58,600 nt of DNA from a bacterium (GCA_021372515.1 JAJFUG010000113.1:1-58600), one strand, 5' to 3'. Positions 16,387 to 37,007 are shown, counted from the first letter of the stretch. Notes: a model not told the origin generated them from the letters alone. Numbers and translations are program-made.

Positions 16387-18027
<1,641 letters not shown>

Positions 18028-18048
18028 CCTCACACTCCTTCAATGTGC

Positions 18049-18060
18049 AATAGTGCTATT
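18049..18060. promoter_or_regulatory. Candidate activator site upstream of the sigma-54 promoter
   Basis: AATAG-TG-CTATT is a 12-base dyad located about 100 bases before the -24 element at 18151, the usual distance for enhancer sites of sigma-54 activators. A second dyad with the same arms-around-TG layout precedes the histidine kinase gene. Binding is inferred only from position and symmetry. Confidence 0.35.
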
Positions 18061-18149
18061 TCAATTTAAAATAATCATTCGGATTTGTCAAAGCAACCCT
18101 GTATCGCTAAAATGTTCATTCATAACGCAATACTTCGCAGCCTCCCGTA

Positions 18150-18164
18150 TGGCACGCTCATTGC
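18150..18164 (+). promoter_or_regulatory. Sigma-54 promoter of the M20 hydrolase-acetate kinase operon
   Basis: TGGCACG-CTCA-TTGC matches the -24/-12 consensus at every conserved base, with GG at 18151-18152 and GC at 18163-18164 spaced correctly. Transcription would begin near 18176, 36 bases before the ATG at 18212. Confidence 0.85.
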
Positions 18165-18211
18165 CCTCCTCTCAGGCGTCCCATCACTGCCAACCCAAAC
18201 AGGAGACTACG

Positions 18212-19453
18212 ATGTACAGCATACTCAGGGACCAGATGGAAAGTGTGAAGAAGGATGTGGTCGATTTCACCCGTGAACTCGTACGCACCCCCAGCGAAAG
18301 CCTGGAGGAGGGCGATGCCGCGGCCTTGGTGGAAAAACGGATGCTCGAGCTGGGCTACCACAAAGTGCTGCGGGATGATTTCGGCAACGTGATCGGGGTG
18401 CTCTACGGCCGCGAGGCCGAGCCCACGCTGCTGCTGGCCAGCCACCTGGACACGGTGACAGCCGGAGACACCGGGCGCTGGGAGCACGGTCCGTTCAGCG
18501 GCGAGCTGCACGACGGGCGCATCTACGGCCTCGGCGCGGCAGACTGCAAGGGCGGCCTGGCCGCCCAGGTCTACGCCGGGGCGCTTCTGGAGCGCAGCCT
18601 TCTGCCCCTCAAGGGCAATCTCGTGGTGGCGGCCACCGTGGCCGAGGAAAACGGAGTGAGTGTGGGTCTGCAGGTGCTGCTGGAGCGGACCCTGCCCGAG
18701 CTGGGGCTCAAGCCCGGCATGGCTGTCCTGGGTGAGCCTACCGGACTGGGGCTCTACTACGGCCATGACGGCTGGCTGGAGCTGGAGATAAGGGTCGAGG
18801 GCGCCAACCCGTTCCACGTGGATGACGCGGTGCGCGCCATTTACAACGACCTGACTGTCAACCTCGCCTCCAGGAATGCGGTTTCCGACGCGCCGGAGGA
18901 AATGAACGTGGCTTTCCCGCGTTTCGACAGTCCGGCCGACTACCGCGGCGTGCGCCGCGGCAGCATCCAGCTCCAGCGCCGGGTGACCCCGGTGGAGAAT
19001 GCCCAGGTCGTGATCGGCCAGATCAAGCACCAGGTGTCGGTTCTGACCCAGCCGGTGCGTGAGGTCGCGGTCGAGGTGGCGGTGCGTCAGGAGGTGCAGC
19101 GCCTGTACAACGGTAAGAACGCCCTGGTGCAGCGCTCGCAGCATGCCTGGTCCACCGACCCGTTCCATCCGCTGGTCGAGCGCTCCCGTCAGGCCCTGGC
19201 CGCCGCAGGCTGCAAGTCCGAGCCTGGCAAGTGGAAAATGCAGCGCCTGGGTATGGGCACGGCCGGCGGGACCCTGGTCACCCGCTACGGTATCCCCACG
19301 GTGGGTTACGGTCCCGGTCTCGAGGAAGCCGCGCACAGCAGCGACGAATACGTCGAGGTCAACGCCGTGATGGAAGCGGTCATGGGCACCGCCACGCTCG
19401 CCCACGGCCTGATCGGCATCCCGGTCTATGGCTGGACCTCGGATGAGATTTAA
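18212..19453 (+). CDS. M20-family metallohydrolase, YgeY-like
   Basis: 413 residues from the ATG at 18212 with AGGAG six bases upstream; longer frames would run into the promoter. Metal and catalytic residues of the M20 family are all present: H78 and D80 in ASHLDTV, D111 in GAADCKGG, E145-E146 in VAEENG, E175 in LGEPTG and H375 in AAHSSDEY. The TPSES start and the LGYHKVLRDDFGNVIG stretch resemble E. coli YgeY. The small lid domain lacks the usual HGS motif. M20 enzymes hydrolyse amide bonds of dipeptides, N-acyl amino acids and similar compounds. The genes following encode acetate kinases, so an acetylated or acyl-yielding substrate is plausible but unproven. Confidence 0.85.
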   Translation: MYSILRDQMESVKKDVVDFTRELVRTPSESLEEGDAAALVEKRMLELGYHKVLRDDFGNVIGVLYGREAEPTLLLASHLDTVTAGDTGRWEHGPFSGELHDGRIYGLGAADCKGGLAAQVYAGALLERSLLPLKGNLVVAATVAEENGVSVGLQVLLERTLPELGLKPGMAVLGEPTGLGLYYGHDGWLELEIRVEGANPFHVDDAVRAIYNDLTVNLASRNAVSDAPEEMNVAFPRFDSPADYRGVRRGSIQLQRRVTPVENAQVVIGQIKHQVSVLTQPVREVAVEVAVRQEVQRLYNGKNALVQRSQHAWSTDPFHPLVERSRQALAAAGCKSEPGKWKMQRLGMGTAGGTLVTRYGIPTVGYGPGLEEAAHSSDEYVEVNAVMEAVMGTATLAHGLIGIPVYGWTSDEI

Positions 19454-19474
19454 GGCCGACAAGAGAGGCTTGAA

Positions 19475-20683
19475 ATGAAAATTCTCGTGCTTAACTGCGG
19501 CAGTTCCTCGCTGAAATACCGCCTGATCGATATGCCCTCGGAGCAGGAGCTGGCCGGGGGCGAGGCCCAGCGGGTCGGGCCCCTGACCGCCGAGCCGTCG
19601 CGGATCTATCACCACAACGGCCGGCAGAAAAAAGAAGTGGTCGTGCCGATGCCCGATCATGCCGAGGCGTTCCGCCAGGTGATCCGGCTGCTGGACTCTA
19701 CCGGCATGGGGCTTCCGGACGCCCTGGGGCACCGTCTGGTGCACGGCGGTACGCTTTTTGACCGTGACAGCCTGCTCACCCATGAATTGGCCACACATCT
19801 GGATGAGCTGGCCCCCCTGGCGCCGATCCACAACCCGCCGACTATCGCCCTGATCCAGGCCTGCGCCGCCCTATACCCCGACCTGCCGCAGGTCCTGGTC
19901 CCGGATACGGCTTTCCACACGTGTATCCCGGACTATGCCGCCGACTACGCCCTGCCGCGCGAGCTGACCGGTCCAATGGGCCTGCGCAAGTTCGGGTTCC
20001 ACGGGATCAGCCACGGCTATGTCACCGCCGAGGCGGCCCGGATACTGGACGTGCCCCCCGAGCGGTTCAATGCGGTGAGCTGCCACCTGGGCAGCGGCGG
20101 GGCCAGCCTCTGCGCGGTGCGGGGCGGGCATTCGGTGGACAACAGCATGGGCTGGTCTCCGCTCCAGGGCCTGGTGATGAGCACCCGCTGCGGCGACCTC
20201 GACCCGGCCGTGACATTGCGCCTGATCGAGCGCGCGGGCGGTAACTGCGAGGCGGTGGAGAAAATCCTCAACCGCTCGAGCGGCCTGCTCGGACTGAGCC
20301 AGGTCAGCGCCGACATCCGCGACATCCTGCGGGCCCTGGAAAAGGACACCCCCGCCGACCCGGAAATGGCCCTGGCGGCGCAGGTATACCTCTGGCGGCT
20401 GCGCAAATACCTTGGCGCCTACCTTCTTGCCGCCGGCCCCTGCCAGGCGGTCATCTTTACCGACACCATCGGCGAAACCGTGCCCCTTGTGCGCTGGGCG
20501 GTCTGCAGCGACATGCGCTGTTTCGGTTTGGAGCTCGACCCGCAGAAGAACCTGAGACCCGGCCCCCTGCCGTCCGACATCTCCACACCGGAAAGCCCGG
20601 TGCGCATCCTGGTGGTCGCGACCAACGAGGAACTGGCCATCGCCCGCCAGAGCTGGAACACACTGTGCCTCCGGGCGGCGTGA
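19475..20683 (+). CDS. ackA: Acetate kinase
   Basis: 402 residues, the normal length. The acetokinase motifs are in place: NCGSSSLK with N7, S10, S12 and K14, R87 in GHRLVHGG, H119 in PIHNP, D144 in PDTAFH, H176 in FGFHGISH, R238 in STRCGD, FTDTIGET for the usual GIGEN, and TNEELAIAR near the end. The phosphate loop reads HLGSGGAS instead of HLGNGAS, a one-residue change. It interconverts acetate + ATP with acetyl phosphate + ADP in the cytoplasm. It starts 21 bases after the hydrolase stop and precedes a degenerate paralog by 13 bases. No phosphotransacetylase gene is in the window. Confidence 0.93.
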   Translation: MKILVLNCGSSSLKYRLIDMPSEQELAGGEAQRVGPLTAEPSRIYHHNGRQKKEVVVPMPDHAEAFRQVIRLLDSTGMGLPDALGHRLVHGGTLFDRDSLLTHELATHLDELAPLAPIHNPPTIALIQACAALYPDLPQVLVPDTAFHTCIPDYAADYALPRELTGPMGLRKFGFHGISHGYVTAEAARILDVPPERFNAVSCHLGSGGASLCAVRGGHSVDNSMGWSPLQGLVMSTRCGDLDPAVTLRLIERAGGNCEAVEKILNRSSGLLGLSQVSADIRDILRALEKDTPADPEMALAAQVYLWRLRKYLGAYLLAAGPCQAVIFTDTIGETVPLVRWAVCSDMRCFGLELDPQKNLRPGPLPSDISTPESPVRILVVATNEELAIARQSWNTLCLRAA

Positions 20684-20696
20684 AAGGAACGGACAG

Positions 20697-21794
20697 ATGA
20701 ACATTCTGGTTTTGAACCTCCACCGGCTGAAACTGTCGTTCAGCCTGTTCCGCGGCCGGGAGGAGCAGCCGTTCTGGTGCGGTGACACGGCCGCGGCCGG
20801 CTCCATGATCGACAGCGGCGCGCTGCGCGCCAGCCTGGGACGGGTGTACGAGGGGGCGCTCTGCATGCTGAAAGGCGAAAGCCTGCACGGGGTCTCGCTG
20901 ATAGTCAAATACGGCGGGAGCATGTTCAAAAGCGCCGAGGAGGTCTGCCCGGACAGCCTGGCCCGCCTGGAGTCCCTGGCCTCCCAGGCCCCGCTTCACG
21001 CACCCTCGGCCGCCCGCCTGGCCCGCGCCGCGGCTGAGGTGTTCCAGCGCATCCCGGTGGTGCTGGTGTTCGAGACCGCATTCTTCACCGCGCTTCCGGC
21101 CCGCGAATACTCCTACGCCCTGGACACCGGGATGGCGAAATCAATGGAACTCAGACGGTTCGGCTACCACGGGCTGTTCCACGAGGCGGCCTGCCTCGAT
21201 GCCCGGCACCACCGTCTGGCCAGCGGGGTGGCCGCGCCGGGGCGCTACCTGTCGCTCTGCCTGGAGCCGAGACCCGAGTTGGCCGCAGTGCTCGACCATG
21301 TGCCGCTGATGGTCACCGGGGGGGCCACTCCCCTCGAGGGCCTGCCCGGCCGAACCTCCTGCGGCGAGATCGACCCCAGTATCGTCATCTCCCTGGCCAG
21401 CGGCCTGGGCTGGGGCCCGGAACAGATCAACGAGACCCTGACCCGGCGCAGCGGAATCCTGGGACTGACCGGAAAATCGGTGGACCTGGGTGAAATTATC
21501 CGGGGCGGCGAGCAGCACCGCCAGGCCCGGGAACTGGTCCGCTACCGCATCCTGCTGGCCTGCGGCATGGGGATCGCGGCCCTGGGCGGTCTGGACACGA
21601 TAGTGATCTCCGGACGGTTCAGCGCGGCGGGTGAAACTCTGGGACTCTGGCTCAGGGACTCGATCCACCTGAACGGGTGCGACAAGGAAAAGGCCCCCCG
21701 GTTCGAAATATTCCGCAAGAGCCTGGCGCGTGTGGCCGCAGACCGGGCCGCCGGCCTCATGATCGGCTCGAGCCGCCCCTCGCTCGCCGCCTGA
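20697..21794 (+). CDS. Degenerate acetate kinase paralog, probable pseudo-kinase
   Basis: 365 residues. It aligns by eye along the whole acetate kinase: MNILVLN for MKILVLN, PLHAPSAA for PIHNPPT, RRFGYHGLFHEA for RKFGFHGISHGY, TPLEGLPGRTSCGEIDP for SPLQGLVMSTRCGDLDP. However S10, S12 and K14 are replaced (R, K and S), the substrate Arg is Lys (VKYGG), the catalytic Asp is Glu (FETAFF), R238 is Ser, the HLGxG loop is gone, and the IGEN and TNEE motifs are missing. The frame is intact and codon use is normal, so it is kept by selection rather than decaying. A regulatory or structural partner of the adjacent AckA is the likeliest reading. Confidence 0.75.
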   Translation: MNILVLNLHRLKLSFSLFRGREEQPFWCGDTAAAGSMIDSGALRASLGRVYEGALCMLKGESLHGVSLIVKYGGSMFKSAEEVCPDSLARLESLASQAPLHAPSAARLARAAAEVFQRIPVVLVFETAFFTALPAREYSYALDTGMAKSMELRRFGYHGLFHEAACLDARHHRLASGVAAPGRYLSLCLEPRPELAAVLDHVPLMVTGGATPLEGLPGRTSCGEIDPSIVISLASGLGWGPEQINETLTRRSGILGLTGKSVDLGEIIRGGEQHRQARELVRYRILLACGMGIAALGGLDTIVISGRFSAAGETLGLWLRDSIHLNGCDKEKAPRFEIFRKSLARVAADRAAGLMIGSSRPSLAA

Positions 21795-21827
21795 GGCTGC
21801 GGCCTGACTTCAATTCAATATATATTA

Positions 21828-21866
21828 AAACGGCCAAGCCTGTTGATTCAGGCTTGGCCGTTTCTC
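21828..21866 (+). terminator. Terminator of the hydrolase-acetate kinase operon
   Basis: AAACGGCCAAGCCTG at 21828-21842 pairs with CAGGCTTGGCCGTTT at 21849-21863, followed by TTTCTC. An almost identical hairpin occurs at 33241-33278 beside tRNA-Ser. Confidence 0.85.
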
Positions 21867-22316: not shown

Positions 22317-23687
22317 ATGGGCATCAACAGCGGAAAACCGTACTCAGCACTGCTCAGGCTCAACGTCCTGGTGGTGGATGACGAGTCCTCCATCCGGAAG
22401 ACACTGGCCTATTGCCTGGAAAGCCTCGGGCACACTGTCACGGCTGTGTCTGGCGCAGAGGAGGGACTGGCAGAGGCCAGAGACAAGGCTTTCGACCTGG
22501 CGTTTGTCGACATGCGCCTGGACAGCGACAACGGCCTGGACCTGGTCCCCGCCCTGCTGGAGGCCTCGCCCTGGATCAAGTGTGTCGTGATAACCGCCTA
22601 TGCCTCGGTCGACACCGCGGTCGAGGCGATGCGGCGCGGGGCGTTCGACTATTTGCCCAAGCCGTTCGAGCCGGACCAGGTGCGGCTGGAGTGCGAGAAA
22701 GTGCTCCGGATCCGGAGCCTGGAGCTGAAACTGGAGGAGTTCAAGTCCGCCCTGGCGGCTCTCAGCCCGGGGATCAACCTGATGACCGGTAACAGTGCGA
22801 TGAAACACGCCCTGGAGACCGCCCGTCAGGTGGCTCCCACGGAGTCGATTGTTCTGCTGCGGGGTGAAACCGGGACCGGGAAATCCGTTCTGGCGCGGGC
22901 CATTCACGGCTGGAGCCGCCGGGCCGGCAAGCCGATGACGATCATCTCCTGCCCCACTCTGCCCTCCGAGCTGCTGGAAAGCGAGCTGTTCGGCCATGCC
23001 CGTGGAGCGTTCACCGGCGCGTTCAAGGACCACGCCGGCCGGATAGCGGCCTGCCACGGCGGGACCCTGTTCCTGGATGAGATCGGCGACCTGCCCCCGC
23101 CGATCCAGCCCAAACTGCTGCGTTTCATCCAGGACCGGGAGTACGAGAGAATCGGTGAAAACATTACCCGCACCGAGGATGTGCGGATCATCGCCGCGAC
23201 CAACACAGACTTGGAGCAGGCCATGCGCGAAGGCCGCTTCCGCGAGGACCTCTTCTACCGTCTGAATGTGATCCAGATAGAGATACCGCCCCTGCGTGAG
23301 CGGCCCGAGGACATCGAGCCGCTGGCTTTGGATTTCCTGAGTTTCTGCGGACGGGTCAACCACAAGCGGTTCACTGGGTTCGACAGCGAGGCCCTGGCGG
23401 CCCTGAGACACTACCCCTGGCCCGGTAACATCCGCGAGCTGAGCAACATCATCGAAAGAGCCGCGATACTCTGCAAACACGAGCTGGTCCGTCTCGAGGA
23501 CCTCCCTGGTTCTTTCCGTCCCCAGAGCCCGAAGCTTCGGATCGGGGACCGCGTGCCCCTGGAACAGATCGAGGAGGCCCATATCCGCAGTGTTCTGGCC
23601 CGTACACGCAAGATTCAGGACGCCGCCGAAATCCTGGGGATCGACCAGGCCACCCTGTACCGCTTTCGCAAGACCCACGGCCTGTAG
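22317..23687 (+). CDS. NtrC-family response regulator, AlgB-like
   Basis: 456 residues from the ATG at 22317; an in-frame TTG at 22278 would add 13 residues. The receiver domain (about 15-135) has VVDDES and the phospho-acceptor D65 in VDMRLDS, and closes with KPF. The AAA+ domain has GETGTGKS, a perfect GAFTGA at 230-235 and FLDEIGD. The C-terminal Fis-type helix-turn-helix ends AAEILGIDQATLYRFRK. The receiver sequence resembles AlgB of Pseudomonas. Phosphorylation by the kinase encoded next would allow it to activate sigma-54 promoters; the nearest lies between the two genes, with dyads suited as its binding sites. Confidence 0.92.
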   Translation: MGINSGKPYSALLRLNVLVVDDESSIRKTLAYCLESLGHTVTAVSGAEEGLAEARDKAFDLAFVDMRLDSDNGLDLVPALLEASPWIKCVVITAYASVDTAVEAMRRGAFDYLPKPFEPDQVRLECEKVLRIRSLELKLEEFKSALAALSPGINLMTGNSAMKHALETARQVAPTESIVLLRGETGTGKSVLARAIHGWSRRAGKPMTIISCPTLPSELLESELFGHARGAFTGAFKDHAGRIAACHGGTLFLDEIGDLPPPIQPKLLRFIQDREYERIGENITRTEDVRIIAATNTDLEQAMREGRFREDLFYRLNVIQIEIPPLRERPEDIEPLALDFLSFCGRVNHKRFTGFDSEALAALRHYPWPGNIRELSNIIERAAILCKHELVRLEDLPGSFRPQSPKLRIGDRVPLEQIEEAHIRSVLARTRKIQDAAEILGIDQATLYRFRKTHGL

Positions 23688-23717
23688 CCCCATGCCATCC
23701 GATTCCGCTTGCCCGTT

Positions 23718-23757
23718 CGTGCAATTTGCACGGACCGGGAAAGCGATTTGTGCAAAT
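23718..23757. promoter_or_regulatory. Paired dyads, candidate enhancer sites
   Basis: CGTGCAATTTGCACG (23718-23732) is a perfect palindrome, and ATTTG-TG-CAAAT (23746-23757) is a second dyad sharing the TTTGCAC/GTGCAAA core. They lie 70-110 bases upstream of the sigma-54 promoter at 23826, a normal enhancer position for the regulator encoded immediately upstream. Confidence 0.6.
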
Positions 23758-23825
23758 ATCACATCCGCAACGTTAGCCGTATCCATCAAACCCTTGCACA
23801 GAGCCATTCCGGGCGTTCAGCGCCC

Positions 23826-23840
23826 TGGCATGACGGTTGC
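23826..23840 (+). promoter_or_regulatory. Sigma-54 promoter of the histidine kinase and TonB-module genes
   Basis: TGGCATG-ACGG-TTGC has the GG and GC pairs in correct spacing and differs from consensus only at the T in TGGCATG. Transcription would start near 23852, before the ATG at 23889. Confidence 0.75.
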
Positions 23841-23888
23841 CTTATATACCTCCCGATTCCCAAATCACACTCTCAGCCGGGAAATAAA

Positions 23889-25721
23889 ATGAGCCTCAGA
23901 AAGAAAGTCCTCCTGGAGAACGGCCTGGGACTGGGCCTGGTGGTCCTGATCGTCGCCTGGTCGGTCTACAACCTGCTCTCTCTCGGCCAGACCAGCGAAT
24001 CGATCCTGCGGGAAAACTACCAGAGCATCCTGGCCGCCTACGACATGCATATCGCGTTGGACAACCAGGACATGATCATCCGGGACGACCTGCGCAACCT
24101 GAGGCCCAAAGGTCAGCTCGAGTTCAAGAAAAGCGAGGACATATTCCGCCGCGCCCTGGGCAAAGCCCGGGACCATGTTTATGTCAGGGGCGAGGCTGAG
24201 ATAGTCGATTCGATTGAAACCCAGTACGGACGGTATGTCGCCGAGTTTTTCGACCGGTTCATCCTGGAACCCTCGCTCAGCGACAGCCTGGCCACGTCCT
24301 ACCAGGGCTCTTTCCTCACACTCTCGGACAGGATACACGGCTCTTTCATCAAACTGAGCGACCTGAACCAGAGCAGCATGTACGAATCGAGCCTGCGCTC
24401 CAGGCTGGTGGCCACCCGGGCGGCCTGGTCCATGATCGCGATCGGGGCGGTGGTGCTGGTGATCGGCCTGCTGTTCAGCCTCCTGCTCTCCAACTACCTG
24501 GTCAGTCCGCTGAAACGTCTGATGGAGGCCTCCCGGCTGATCGCGCTTGGAGACTACAGCGTAAGGATGCCCCTGGAGAGCCGGGATGAATTCGGGCAAC
24601 TCTCCCAGGAATTCAACCGCATGGCCGGCGAGCTGGCCGCGTTCCACGAGATGCACGTGGACAGGATACTGGCCGAGAAACACAAGACCGAGGCGATCCT
24701 GCAGGGCATCGAGGAGGGCGTGATGGTGCTGGAGCCAGACCTGCGGCTTTCCACGATCAACTCCGCTGCGATCCGCCTCCTGGAGCTGAAAAAATATACA
24801 CCGGGGACATCCGCCGCTTTCACGGAGCTGATCGAGCACGAGGGCTTGATCCACGCGGTCCGCTCTCTGGCCGAAACCGGTAAAATACCTGCGATGGAAG
24901 ACTCTCAGCGCCTGATTGCCATACCACTCAAGCAGTCGGTGCGCTACCTGCTGTTCTCCGTGACCCCGGCCTGGAACAAGGAGGGCGGGCTGGCGGCGAT
25001 CCTGATCCTGCTGATCGACGTGACCCGGCTGGGCGAACTGGATCGTCTGAAAAACGAGTTCATCATGGCCGCCTCGCACGAGCTGCGCACCCCGCTGACC
25101 AGTATCGGCATGAGCATCGAGCTGCTGATGGAGCATGTTTCCGAGCAGTTGAAGCCCAGGGAAAGGGAGCTTCTCACCTCGGCCAGCAGCGAGATAAAAC
25201 GTTTAAAGACCCTCGTTTCGGACCTGCTGGACCTGTCCAAGATCGAGTCCGGGGTGATCGAGCTCGATTTCCAGCGTCTTCAGCCCGCAGTGGTGGTCGA
25301 GCGTGCCGTTTCCCTTCTCGCCGATCAGATGGAAACCAAAAAGATAATTTTCCGGCAGGACATCCCGGCCTCTCTTCCCGAGGTCCGGGCCGATGCCGAC
25401 AAGACAGTCTGGGTGCTGACCAACTTGATCGGTAACGCCACCCGGTATGTGGACGCCGGAGGAGAGATCAAGCTTTCCGCCCAGGCCCGCGGCCAGTTCA
25501 TGCACTTTTCCGTCTCAGACAACGGACCGGGAATAGCCAAGGAGCATCAGAGCAAGATTTTCGAGAAATTCGTACAGATAAAGGACTACGGAAAAGTCGG
25601 CGGCGCGGGCCTGGGCCTGTCGATCTCTCGTGAAATTGTCCGCGCCCACGGCGGGACGATCTGGGTGGATTCAATACCCGGCAGCGGCAGCACTTTCACT
25701 TTTACCTTGCCCCTGGTGTAA
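23889..25721 (+). CDS. Membrane sensor histidine kinase with HAMP and PAS-like domains, KinB-like
   Basis: 610 residues from the ATG at 23889. Membrane segments at about 10-30 and 178-200 flank an outer sensor of about 150 residues that is mostly helical. A HAMP domain follows (SPLKRLMEASRLIALGDYSVRMP), then a PAS-like region, then HisKA with H397 in ASHELRTPL, and the ATPase domain with NLIGNATRYV, DNGPGI and GGAGLGLSIS. It should phosphorylate the AlgB-like regulator encoded 201 bases upstream and possibly the lone receiver encoded 20 bases downstream. The signal is unknown. A sigma-54 promoter precedes it, so the pair may be self-reinforcing. Confidence 0.93.
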   Translation: MSLRKKVLLENGLGLGLVVLIVAWSVYNLLSLGQTSESILRENYQSILAAYDMHIALDNQDMIIRDDLRNLRPKGQLEFKKSEDIFRRALGKARDHVYVRGEAEIVDSIETQYGRYVAEFFDRFILEPSLSDSLATSYQGSFLTLSDRIHGSFIKLSDLNQSSMYESSLRSRLVATRAAWSMIAIGAVVLVIGLLFSLLLSNYLVSPLKRLMEASRLIALGDYSVRMPLESRDEFGQLSQEFNRMAGELAAFHEMHVDRILAEKHKTEAILQGIEEGVMVLEPDLRLSTINSAAIRLLELKKYTPGTSAAFTELIEHEGLIHAVRSLAETGKIPAMEDSQRLIAIPLKQSVRYLLFSVTPAWNKEGGLAAILILLIDVTRLGELDRLKNEFIMAASHELRTPLTSIGMSIELLMEHVSEQLKPRERELLTSASSEIKRLKTLVSDLLDLSKIESGVIELDFQRLQPAVVVERAVSLLADQMETKKIIFRQDIPASLPEVRADADKTVWVLTNLIGNATRYVDAGGEIKLSAQARGQFMHFSVSDNGPGIAKEHQSKIFEKFVQIKDYGKVGGAGLGLSISREIVRAHGGTIWVDSIPGSGSTFTFTLPLV

Positions 25722-33372: not shown

Positions 33373-33478
33373 AGTTTTAACTGATTGTGGCCTGCAATTT
33401 AATCCGCCCGGCGCGGACTGTCAAGCCTGCGGAAAACCCCTCTGCGGCTTGGCGCCGGAACAAGTTGTCGCGTGGGTC

Positions 33479-33494
33479 TGGCACGAGTGTTGCA
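33479..33494 (+). promoter_or_regulatory. Sigma-54 promoter of the TonB-dependent receptor operon
   Basis: TGGCACG-AGTG-TTGCA matches the full -24/-12 consensus, with GG at 33480-33481 and GC at 33492-33493. The start would be near 33505, giving a leader of about 160 bases. The rest of the 33373-33665 gap holds a weak TGCAATTT half-site near 33401 but no gene. Confidence 0.8.
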
Positions 33495-33665
33495 CACTGT
33501 GCCGCTGTCCGCCTGATTTATCTCTGGCGCGACGCCTACGAATGCTTTAACTTATCGCACCGATCATCGCATTTCCAACGTTCATACAGCCTCGGGACAA
33601 GCAGCATCTTGCACAGCGCGAACCACAGACCAGTGTTACCCGGCCGGAGTCAGCGACGCTCCCGC

Positions 33666-36600
33666 ATGGTAACACCCCTGCTCCTTCTGCTGACCGCTCT
33701 GGCCCTCGTGCCGGGCCGCGAGCTTTTCGCCCAGACCGGGGCCAAGATCGAGGGCATGGTGCGCGACTCGGCCAGCGGCGAGCCGCTGGAGGGTGTGCAG
33801 GTCTCGGTCGAGGGCACCCGCCTGGGCAATGTCTCGGCCGGGGACGGCTACTATTTCATATTGAATGTCCCGCCGGGTGCGCAGAACGTCTCTTTCCACC
33901 GCACCGGATACCGTGCCCGCACGGTCAGCGCGGTGCAGCTTTCGGCCGGCCACACCGCCACGCTGAACGTGACCCTGGAGCCCGGCGTGTTCGAGATGGA
34001 GGCAATCACAGTCTCGGCCGGCGAATCGCCCCTCATCCCCAGGGACAATGTCCAGACCGCCCAGCGCTTCGATGCCAAGACCGCGGGCGAGATTCCGGCC
34101 GAATCCGTGGAACAGATACTCTCCCTGCAGGCCGGAGTGACCACCGACCCCTACGGCCAGTTCCGCATCCGCGGCGGCCGTCAGGGCCAGCAGGCGGTTT
34201 ACATCGACGGTGTGCTGGTGCGGAGTTTCAACGAGCGGCCCTACGAGGCCGACAACACCCCGCTCTACGTGGCCACCAACGCGGTCGAGGAAGTGAGCGT
34301 GATCACCGGCGGGTTCAGCTCCGAGTTCGGCCAGGCTGGCTCGGCCGTAATCAATGAAGTTACCCGTGAGGGTGGAAGCCAGCTTTCGGGCAGCGTGCAG
34401 CTTGAGAGCGACGGGTTCATGCCGCGGGGCATGGACTACGGCTACAACCGCTTGCAGGCCGAGGCCGGCGGGCCGCTGGGGCTGTCGGGGGCCTCGTTCT
34501 TCGTGAGCGCCGAGCTTCTGGGCCGCGCCGACCGCAACCCTACCAGCGGCGGTTTCCGCGGGGTGGATGACGCTTTCGTGAATAAGCTCAACAACGTGCT
34601 CACCACCCTGGGACTCTACGACCCGAACTCGGCCGCCTCGCGCGAGGGCGGTGGGGCGCTGGACGCGGACGCTTTCCGCGAGGGTATCCAGGCCCTGGAC
34701 AAGTTCTCGTTCAGCAATGTCTGGTTCCAGGACACGGACGGTGACGGGATCGGGGACCAGCGGCAGTTCACGCTGGGGGATGATTTCACCGGCGCGGACG
34801 GCGTGCTGGGCACCTACGACGACAAGCGCACGGTCAACGGCGCCGGAGTCTACGCCAACCCCAACCCGGCCCGTCTGCCCGGCAACGGCGATGACCAGTA
34901 CAGCCTCTCGGGCAAGCTCACCTGGTACCAGAACGCCAACCTCAAGTGGCTGGCTTCGGTGCAGGGCAGCCGCAAGCAGCGCCGGGCCTACAGCCACTCC
35001 GACCTGTTCAACAACCCGCTGCGCTCCAACCTGGCCGCCCGGATCACCACCGCCAACGCCACCGCCGGTTTCGACTGGATCATCGACCAGTCCGCCCGGC
35101 GCAACACAAATGTCAAGCTGCGCGCCAACCTCTACCGCAACGACCTGATCCTGGGCACCCCGACCCTCGAATCGCTGAGCCGCGACACCTGGGGCGGGTT
35201 CGGGCCGTCGAGCCTGGACATTATAAGCCAGGACCGCACCCGCGCGGATGATATTTACCGCAATACCACCAACAGCGGCCTGGAGGGCGACCTCCACGAG
35301 CCCTCCGGCTCCAGCGCGACCGTGGACAACGAGCGCGGCCTCTGGCCCAGCGCGGTGCCGGGCAACAACATCCCCTTCGCCACCTCGATAACCCAGCTCC
35401 CCGGCGGACGGGGCGGATTTTCGGCCCAGTTCATCAACGCCGGCCTGATCTCACAGCTCCAGAACAGCCGCGAGGACCGTTTCTCGCTCAAGACCGACCT
35501 TGAAAGCCAGCTCAACCGCTATTTCCGGGTCAAGACCGGGGTGGACCTCAAACTGTTCCACATCCGCGAGGGCGATTTCGACCAGACCGGAGGCGTGTTC
35601 CAGGACTTCTACGACACCCGGCCGCTGATCGCCGCGGGCTATATCCAGAACATCGCCGATTTCGGCGACCTGGTGCTGGACTACGGCCTGCGGGTGGACT
35701 ACATGAACACGCGCGCCGATTTCCCGCTGGTGCTCGGCGAGGCCCGCCCCGAGGACCCGCGCTACCGTCCCGAGGCCCAGGTTTTCTACAGCCCGCGCCT
35801 GAGCGTGGCCCTGCCGGTCACCGACCGCTCGCAGGTGCGCCTGTCCTACGGTCACTTTTTCCAGACCCCGGCCTTCAAGGACATCTACGGCCACATGAAC
35901 CAGGATTTCCGGTTCGACCTGGGGGGCAACACCAACAACATCTACGGCAACGGCAACCTGCAGATGGCCCAGACCGTGATGTTCGAGGCCGGGTTCAGCA
36001 CCATCCTGGACGAGAACACGCGCCTGGACTTCGTGGGCTACCACAGCGAGGTGCGCGGCGACATCGCGGTGCGCCAGATGACCCCCGAGCAGATACTGGA
36101 GCTGGCCGGTGTGACCGACCGGACCTCCACCCGCTCCAACGCGATCCTGAGCGTCTACACCAACCGCGACAAGACCACGGCCCGCGGGCTGGAGATCACG
36201 TTCAACCGTAGGATGAGTTCCTGGTGGGGGCTGGACGCCACCTACACCCTGTCGTTCCCGCGCGCCACGGCCAGCGACCCGCAGGAGTACATCCTCACCT
36301 ACGGCCGCCAGACCTATTTCGACCCGATCACCGGCAAGCGCGGGGTGCAGCCGCCGCCGCGCAGCCTGACCCCGGTGGACTACGACCAGACCCACCAGCT
36401 CAACATCCAGTACAGTTTCCGCCTGCCGGAGTTCTGGCCCCAGGGCGGCCGCGCCGACAAGATACTGAGCGACATCAGCGGCTTCGCCACATTCCAGTTC
36501 GCCAGCGGCCAGCCCTATACCCAGCTCAACCAGAGCGGCTACCCGGCCGGGTCCAACAACAACGAGCGCGGGCCCTCGTACAAGAACGTGAACCTGCGCC

Positions 36601-37007
36601 TCAACAAGGAGCTCCCCTATTTCGGGCCGAAGCTCAAGGTGCGGGCGTTCGGCGAGTTCTACAACCTTTTCGGATTCACCAATTACAACATAGATTATAT
36701 CAACCCCACCACGGGCAGCCCGGATGTGGACGCCTACATACTCAAAGAGGCGTTCAACGACCGCCCGGATTTCCGGGACGCCGCGGGCCATAAAGTGGAC
36801 CGTCTGACCCGCACCGACCAGATCGAAAAACTGACCGGGGATGACGCACAGACCCTGGTGCGCGTGCAGGACCTGGATGGGGACGGCTATATCTCGAAGA
36901 ACGAGATCGTGGCCCTCAAGCTGGCCAACCTCCTGGCCAGCCTGGACAACCCCATGGCCTACCTTCGCCCGCTGGAGGTCCGGCTGGGCGTGAGCGTGGA
37001 TTTCTGA
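33666..37007 (+). CDS. TonB-dependent receptor with carboxypeptidase-regulatory-like domain and EF-hand loop
   Basis: 1113 residues from the ATG at 33666; an in-frame GTG at 33633 would add a basic stretch (GRSQRRSR) that suits a signal peptide better, so the start is uncertain. After the signal come a CarboxypepD_reg-like Ig domain (about 25-110), a plug domain (AESVEQILSLQAGV, FRIRGGRQGQQAVYIDGV, INEVTREGGSQLSG) and a 22-strand-type barrel ending in EVRLGVSVDF. Two calcium-loop sequences stand out: DTDGDGIGD at 356 and a complete EF-hand loop DLDGDGYISKNE at 1069-1080, just before the last strand. It imports a bulky substrate, probably a glycan or peptide. It is followed 10 bases later by the sorting-domain protein gene. 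Confidence 0.9.
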   Translation: MVTPLLLLLTALALVPGRELFAQTGAKIEGMVRDSASGEPLEGVQVSVEGTRLGNVSAGDGYYFILNVPPGAQNVSFHRTGYRARTVSAVQLSAGHTATLNVTLEPGVFEMEAITVSAGESPLIPRDNVQTAQRFDAKTAGEIPAESVEQILSLQAGVTTDPYGQFRIRGGRQGQQAVYIDGVLVRSFNERPYEADNTPLYVATNAVEEVSVITGGFSSEFGQAGSAVINEVTREGGSQLSGSVQLESDGFMPRGMDYGYNRLQAEAGGPLGLSGASFFVSAELLGRADRNPTSGGFRGVDDAFVNKLNNVLTTLGLYDPNSAASREGGGALDADAFREGIQALDKFSFSNVWFQDTDGDGIGDQRQFTLGDDFTGADGVLGTYDDKRTVNGAGVYANPNPARLPGNGDDQYSLSGKLTWYQNANLKWLASVQGSRKQRRAYSHSDLFNNPLRSNLAARITTANATAGFDWIIDQSARRNTNVKLRANLYRNDLILGTPTLESLSRDTWGGFGPSSLDIISQDRTRADDIYRNTTNSGLEGDLHEPSGSSATVDNERGLWPSAVPGNNIPFATSITQLPGGRGGFSAQFINAGLISQLQNSREDRFSLKTDLESQLNRYFRVKTGVDLKLFHIREGDFDQTGGVFQDFYDTRPLIAAGYIQNIADFGDLVLDYGLRVDYMNTRADFPLVLGEARPEDPRYRPEAQVFYSPRLSVALPVTDRSQVRLSYGHFFQTPAFKDIYGHMNQDFRFDLGGNTNNIYGNGNLQMAQTVMFEAGFSTILDENTRLDFVGYHSEVRGDIAVRQMTPEQILELAGVTDRTSTRSNAILSVYTNRDKTTARGLEITFNRRMSSWWGLDATYTLSFPRATASDPQEYILTYGRQTYFDPITGKRGVQPPPRSLTPVDYDQTHQLNIQYSFRLPEFWPQGGRADKILSDISGFATFQFASGQPYTQLNQSGYPAGSNNNERGPSYKNVNLRLNKELPYFGPKLKVRAFGEFYNLFGFTNYNIDYINPTTGSPDVDAYILKEAFNDRPDFRDAAGHKVDRLTRTDQIEKLTGDDAQTLVRVQDLDGDGYISKNEIVALKLANLLASLDNPMAYLRPLEVRLGVSVDF

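Follow-up and report, generated by a model that had tools for sequence, protein, structure and literature searches.

A sigma-54 operon encoding an M20 hydrolase, an acetate kinase with an unusual donor site and a conserved degenerate paralog

PPi-dependent acetate kinase activity has been shown in Entamoeba alone (PMC5517563, PMC5931981). The enzyme of Entamoeba histolytica uses PPi/Pi in place of ATP/ADP (PMC5517563) and has been described as running towards acid and PPi (PMC5931981). A second Gly in the PHOSPHATE2 loop and an Asp in the ADENOSINE motif were reported solely from the Entamoeba enzymes and four Anaerolineaceae sequences, ATP-dependent enzymes having neither; single-residue swaps failed to convert donor use (PMC5517563). 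Bacterial PPi-type candidates are so far few and come from Anaerolineaceae and metagenomes (PMC5517563, PMC5931981). Two neighbouring ackA-type genes are known from Lactococcus lactis, where both products, AckA1 and AckA2, are active homodimers (PMC3956926), and in the ASKHA superfamily TsaB, a paralog with a shortened C-lobe, works beside its active kinase-fold partner TsaD (PMC9654439). In Escherichia coli, the sigma-54 regulator gene ygeV is divergent from the ygeW-ygeX-ygeY-hyuA-yqeA cluster, which holds an M20 enzyme and an acid-anhydride kinase, and YgeY removes the ureido group in reductive uric acid breakdown, acting on the 3-ureido group of albizziin (PMC12507026). A literature search found no paper joining an acetate kinase with a pseudokinase paralog.

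The locus described here lies in the window, a stretch of 58,600 nucleotides (GCA_021372515.1 JAJFUG010000113.1:1-58600) from a bacterial genome of 4.87 Mb that is 99.5% complete. It was compared above all with G002, a genome of Candidatus Glassbacteria from another genus of the same family, a group that GTDB places in the Gemmatimonadota. The original prediction of an activator divergent from a three-gene operon was borne out in gene order, domains and sigma-54 site: genes for an M20 hydrolase, an acetate kinase (Ack1) and a degenerate AckA paralog run in one direction, opposite to the gene of the activator, and 13 bases separate Ack1 from the paralog. The features of the locus are as follows.

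16387–18027, minus strand: sigma-54-dependent activator with XylR_N sensor, AAA+ domain with GSFTGA loop and Fis-type HTH (Pfam; 60% identical ortholog in G002).
18046–18063, unstranded: imperfect palindrome TGCAATAGTGCTATTTCA, a candidate activator site (suggestive); the half-site TGAAATAG is also found in G002.
18085–18091, unstranded: TTGTCAA block, with the same offset from the regulator start in the window and G002.
18150–18165, plus strand: sigma-54 −24/−12 site TGGCACGCTCATTGCC (pattern match; equal offset of 122 bp in G002).
18212–19453, plus strand: M20 metallohydrolase resembling YgeY/ArgE/DapE, whose metal ligands are present in the window copy (profiles and motifs).
19475–20683, plus strand: Ack1, acetate kinase family protein with catalytic residues kept (TIGR00016, 349 bits, and residue mapping).
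20084–20101, plus strand: HLGSGG, the PHOSPHATE2 loop of Ack1, extended by one Gly (alignment).
20456–20479, plus strand: Ack1 ADENOSINE motif FTDTIGET, with the Asp and lacking the invariant Gly (alignment).
20697–21794, plus strand: degenerate paralog of AckA that has lost its catalytic residues; the reading frame is open and the gene is conserved in G002 (profiles and residue mapping).
21828–21863, unstranded: strong hairpin at the end of the transcription unit, terminator-like, with a T-rich tail on the minus side (folding).

The hairpin had a folding energy of −31.3 kcal/mol and a z value of −6.2. Operon neighbours within the window include a beta-galactosidase gene and a two-component pair; the latter, directly downstream at 22338–25718, encodes an NtrC-type response regulator and a HAMP histidine kinase and is probably a separate unit.

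The regulator shares XylR_N, AAA+ and Fis HTH domains with activators of the XylR/DmpR/MobR type. Its XylR_N match scored 73.7 bits against a cut-off of 23, Sigma54_activat reached 235.8 bits and HTH_8 was present (Pfam), so that of the XylR/V4R-type sensor first proposed the XylR_N part stood, whereas V4R, with 24 bits, fell under the Pfam cut-off of 31. MobR was the best NCBIfam model (381 bits), but the MobR exception cut-off of 999 was not reached. A GxFTGA loop, the HTH and a −24/−12 site before the operon are all present. The site at 18150–18165, first described as full-consensus, differs by one base from TGGCACN5TTGCW and recurs in G002, where the regulator and M20 genes diverge around the sigma-54 site TGGCACGGCGGTTGCC. 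The distance from site to regulator start is 122 bp in both genomes, the TTGTCAA block keeps its offset of 57 from that start in G002, and half-sites of the palindrome type occur in both. The pattern TGGCACN5TTGCC has one match in the 58.6-kb window, with 0.05 expected. On these sequence grounds, the predicted control of the operon by sigma-54 is supported. Elsewhere in the window, a perfect sigma-54 consensus, TGGCACGAGTGTTGCA, was observed at 33479–33494; it lies either shortly before a large TonB-receptor-like gene (ORF 33387–37007) or at its 5' end. Relatives of the regulator were searched with its C-terminal part, a search with little bearing on sensor-domain relatives; the next-closest activators, matching it at 46–49% over that part, were L079 28–1593 (G000:C22) and L078 9264–10994 (G001:C157), and neither neighbourhood held M20 or AckA genes.

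For the M20 hydrolase of the window, the metal ligands and catalytic Glu were assigned by motif position as H78, D111, E145, E146, E175 and H375, and D80 is kept as well; in the G002 protein the probable metal ligand E146 is replaced by Gln. The enzyme is closest to the YgeY family, but its 211.9 bits lie below the NCBIfam equivalog cut-off of 321, and identity to E. coli YgeY is 27%. The original prediction had pointed to E. coli, where ygeY was said to stand beside the sigma-54 regulator gene ygeV: the two do share a cluster, but ygeV adjoins ygeW and is two genes away from ygeY. In both loci a sigma-54 regulator gene diverges from an operon that encodes an M20 enzyme and an acid-anhydride kinase; they differ in that the carbamate kinase of E. 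coli has another fold and that the uric acid pathway genes ygeW, ygeX, hyuA and ssnA are absent beside the operon described here. With the low identity, the score below cut-off and the missing pathway genes, the E. coli locus is a weak analogy for this operon. Since the hydrolase is YgeY-like and YgeY acts on ureido compounds, the product could be a carboxylic acid, a carbamate-type product or an amino acid, and among these the carboxylic acid alone feeds directly into an acetate kinase. The pathway first suggested, in which a hydrolase releases an acid that AckA then recovers, with the paralog as a putative regulator, may be regarded as possible.

That the second gene encodes an AckA was confirmed, as Ack1 passed the family cut-offs (TIGR00016, 349 bits against 293.4; PF00871, 363 against 22) and retains N10, K17, R91, H123, D150, H182, R243, R287 and E387 in E. 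coli numbering, to which residue roles were mapped from the Salmonella enzyme (PMC3475010). The PPi-type marks had no place in the earlier description. In both the window and G002, the PHOSPHATE2 loop of Ack1 reads HLGSGG, which exceeds the usual HLGNG by one Gly; its ADENOSINE motif reads FTDTIGET or FTDSIGEN against the usual F[TA][GA]G[IV]GEN, with an Asp at E. coli position 332 and replacement of G333, which is invariant in ATP enzymes. Among 76 distinct AckA-type proteins, neither HLGSGG nor FTD was found outside the two Ack1, and five others had no readable motif; from these sequences, the motifs are real and rare. The Gly-extended loop and the Asp are those of the E. histolytica enzyme (PDB 4h0o) and the Anaerolineaceae sequences (PMC5517563), as is seen on comparing FTDQMG of Entamoeba with FTDTIG of Ack1, and the Gly at MtACK position 331 is replaced in both. 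In contrast, of the Entamoeba pocket residues T201, D322, Q323, M324 and E327, which occlude the site, only one of five, the Asp, is identical in Ack1. At the other pocket positions, N213S and G333T/S are altered differently from Entamoeba, I334 is kept and N337 is T or N. Ack1, known here from its sequence, also stands apart from the Entamoeba enzyme in its setting, being encoded beside an M20 hydrolase and a dead paralog in a sigma-54 operon.

When the nucleotide-binding half of the window Ack1 was matched to PDB sequences, 4h0o, the PPi-dependent enzyme of Entamoeba, came first of 19. With the equivalent half of the ordinary AckA of the same genome it came 18th of 21, and with the N-terminal half of Ack1 17th of 19; the C-terminal half of the G002 Ack1 ranked 4h0o eighth. 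In a tree of C-terminal halves, in which long branches meet, Ack1 and Entamoeba grouped with support of 96/95, which fell to 67/62 when the motif columns were removed. Use of PPi/Pi by Ack1 is accordingly a prediction from sequence, since single-residue swaps did not convert donor use (PMC5517563) and the motifs by themselves are no proof of it. Ack1 could instead be a kinase of short-chain acids that depends on ATP and whose nucleotide site has drifted, its loop and Asp being quirks of the lineage, in an operon that recovers the acid released by the M20 enzyme; the paralog might still be its partner. This is a realistic possibility, consistent with the full catalytic set, with the ATP-type I334 and, in G002, N337, with the weak Entamoeba grouping outside the motif columns and with the outcome of the swaps. 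It leaves unexplained, however, why the extended loop and Asp occur in no other readable AckA collected, nor in the ATP-dependent enzymes (PMC5517563), and why G333, invariant in ATP enzymes, is altered in both Ack1. The window genome also carries a second, canonical AckA and one Pta elsewhere, so that Ack1 is not the housekeeping enzyme, and its two membrane pyrophosphatases and PPDK-type genes make a PPi metabolism plausible.

Further acetate kinase variants were noted during the survey. A third, very divergent AckA-like protein (FETSFH, HLGGSSS, Arg91 replaced by Lys) is encoded in G002 at L034 4668–5936 (G002:C348), adjoining genes for a likely sugar isomerase and a Gfo/Idh-type oxidoreductase; another member of the phylum has an AckA gene with one in-frame TGA (L021, G026:C2:77996–78661); and on an IMG/VR contig an acetate kinase is apparently fused to a PduL-like phosphotransacylase domain (L082 2501–4270).

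The third gene is derived from AckA, with 119.7 bits for PF00871 against a cut-off of 22, while TIGR00016 scores of 120.6 (window) and 109.8 (G002) were both under the cut-off of 293.4. It had been described as full-length; the frame is indeed open and AckA-derived, but the product has 365 aa, the profile match leaves out residues 1–60, and the 354–400 end, including TNEE, is shortened or missing. Likewise, the proposed loss of most catalytic residues holds for K17, G212, N213, G214, R243, R287 and E387, all gone in both genomes, and for R91 in the window, but the Asp counted as lost, D150, is Glu in both genomes, and of the two His said to be kept, H123 persists (as does D285), whereas H182 is His in the window and Asn in G002. 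With these catalytic residues lost, an AckA-type kinase mechanism is very unlikely to operate in the paralog. Ordinary AckAs share 71 conserved positions; at 30 of these both copies have lost the residue, many having changed to the identical new one in both genera (e.g., H94Y, D150E, H154F, H210C, G212E, G214R, D227M and E387R).

Conservation between the two copies is uneven, with 24% identity over residues 1–100 and 54% over 101–330 (Fisher p 2e-5), compared with 60% and 59% for the corresponding regions of the Ack1 pair. The better-kept part covers the 150–180 insertion and the 227–300 segment, which have been tied to the AckA dimer interface (PMC3475010), a pattern that would be expected if selection acted on dimer contacts and not on catalysis. 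A paralog model from a five-row alignment was of low confidence (pLDDT 52), and its best PDB matches were all acetate kinases. The intact frame described at the outset was found open in both the window and G002, with no stops and with GC3 like that of the neighbouring genes; dN was 0.53 and dS 0.96, the latter being rough at such distance, and the paralog evolves faster than its neighbours. Catalytic residues have thus been lost under continued selection, and the sequences support a paralog that is probably non-catalytic yet selected beside an intact AckA.

That the gene is what remains of a tandem duplication and is now being lost would agree with its missing catalytic residues and faster evolution, and has a precedent in the tandem AckA with a degenerating second copy of the Gemmatimonadota genome G286, but it is highly improbable: in two genera the frame is open and similarly long, derived residues are shared, identity reaches 54% over 101–330 and GC3 is of the coding type. 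A decaying gene was rejected on the open frames, the shared new residues and the constraint over 101–330, and a scattered relic because the paralog directly follows Ack1 in both genomes that carry it. In the G286 case, two ordinary AckA genes stand in tandem (L069 7218–8546 and 8563–9804, G286:C203), the second having lost the catalytic His (YGYPGTTSRYE) and, in its first phosphate loop (NAGAAS), two Ser, as an independent degenerating copy.

Orthologs of all four genes were found in G002, the regulator being 60%, M20 55%, Ack1 59–60% and the paralog 46–50% identical. Ack1 and the paralog are adjacent there with reading frames overlapping by 4 bp, which favours coupled synthesis. The regulator/M20 pair and the Ack1/paralog pair lie on separate contigs, one ending inside M20 and the other beginning in a dispersed repeat of about 40 copies, so that linkage of the two halves is not visible in G002. 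The repeat itself (L033 1–180) is about 180 bp long, has an internal inverted repeat and lies directly upstream of the G002 Ack1. A neighbourhood search for the trio thus gave co-occurrence of all four genes in two genomes, with regulator/M20 and Ack1/paralog adjacency kept, but the full trio is contiguous solely in the window. The degenerate gene was found neither alone nor apart from an AckA. It is present in two of 395 phylum genomes; the scans of these 395 detected no further paralog or Ack1 ortholog, and the other four genomes of the family had no paralog, no Ack1 and no close M20. When 84,980 GTDB species were scanned with the paralog pair, the sole match was the second Glassbacteria genome; IMG/VR scans gave two ordinary AckAs and nothing else, and plasmid and phage searches gave generic AckAs alone, at about 40%. 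Conserved co-occurrence of the four genes between two genera is supported.

The adjacency to Ack1 and the overlapping frames suggest a joint product, and so speak against a paralog with a function of its own, as a sensor of acid or acyl phosphate or with a new reaction in the old cleft, and no pairing with Ack1. Such a role is rather unlikely, also because the N-terminal part lining the cleft is the least conserved, but it would account for the new residues shared by both genera around the old active site (C210, E212, R214, E216 and E150) and for the retention of H123 and D285. A partner role is better supported than that of a relic. TsaD–TsaB illustrates by analogy how such a partner could work, a paralog with a shortened C-lobe beside an active kinase-fold protein, with no family relation between the systems.

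Starting from the gene order, the sigma-54 site, their conservation, the loss of catalytic residues under selection and the PPi-type motifs, all directly observed, we tentatively favour an inducible catabolic or salvage operon in which the acid released by the M20 hydrolase is handled by a PPi-type Ack1 with the dead paralog as partner. The XylR_N-type activator would sense a small effector and drive the one sigma-54 promoter, and the hydrolase would cleave an N-acyl-, ureido- or peptide-like compound. Ack1, an intact acid kinase with a PPi-type donor site, would turn the short-chain acid set free by the hydrolase into its acyl phosphate and back, in connection with the Pta of the genome; if it is PPi/Pi-linked, as its motifs suggest, it might run towards acid and PPi as the Entamoeba enzyme does, or activate the acid with PPi. 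The paralog, lacking kinase activity, would most likely pair with Ack1 through the conserved AckA dimer half, and the putative hetero-oligomer could stabilise or tune Ack1 as TsaB does for TsaD. In its boldest form, a bacterial PPi/Pi-dependent acid kinase, joined in a hetero-oligomer with a dead AckA paralog and sigma-54-induced together with an M20 hydrolase, would link the liberated acid to the PPi pool; taken as a whole, this is doubtful.

As read from the sequences, the operon holds a pair of acetate kinase genes, the first with an unusual donor site and the second a dead but conserved copy. If the partner role is true, a bacterial AckA would here have a dead yet conserved paralog as its companion, unlike the tandem copies of Lactococcus, both of which are active. 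Ack1 is also a PPi-type candidate from another phylum, with an inducible operon, a likely upstream enzyme and membrane pyrophosphatases in the genome, and through it one can test directly which other organisms use PPi to activate acids.
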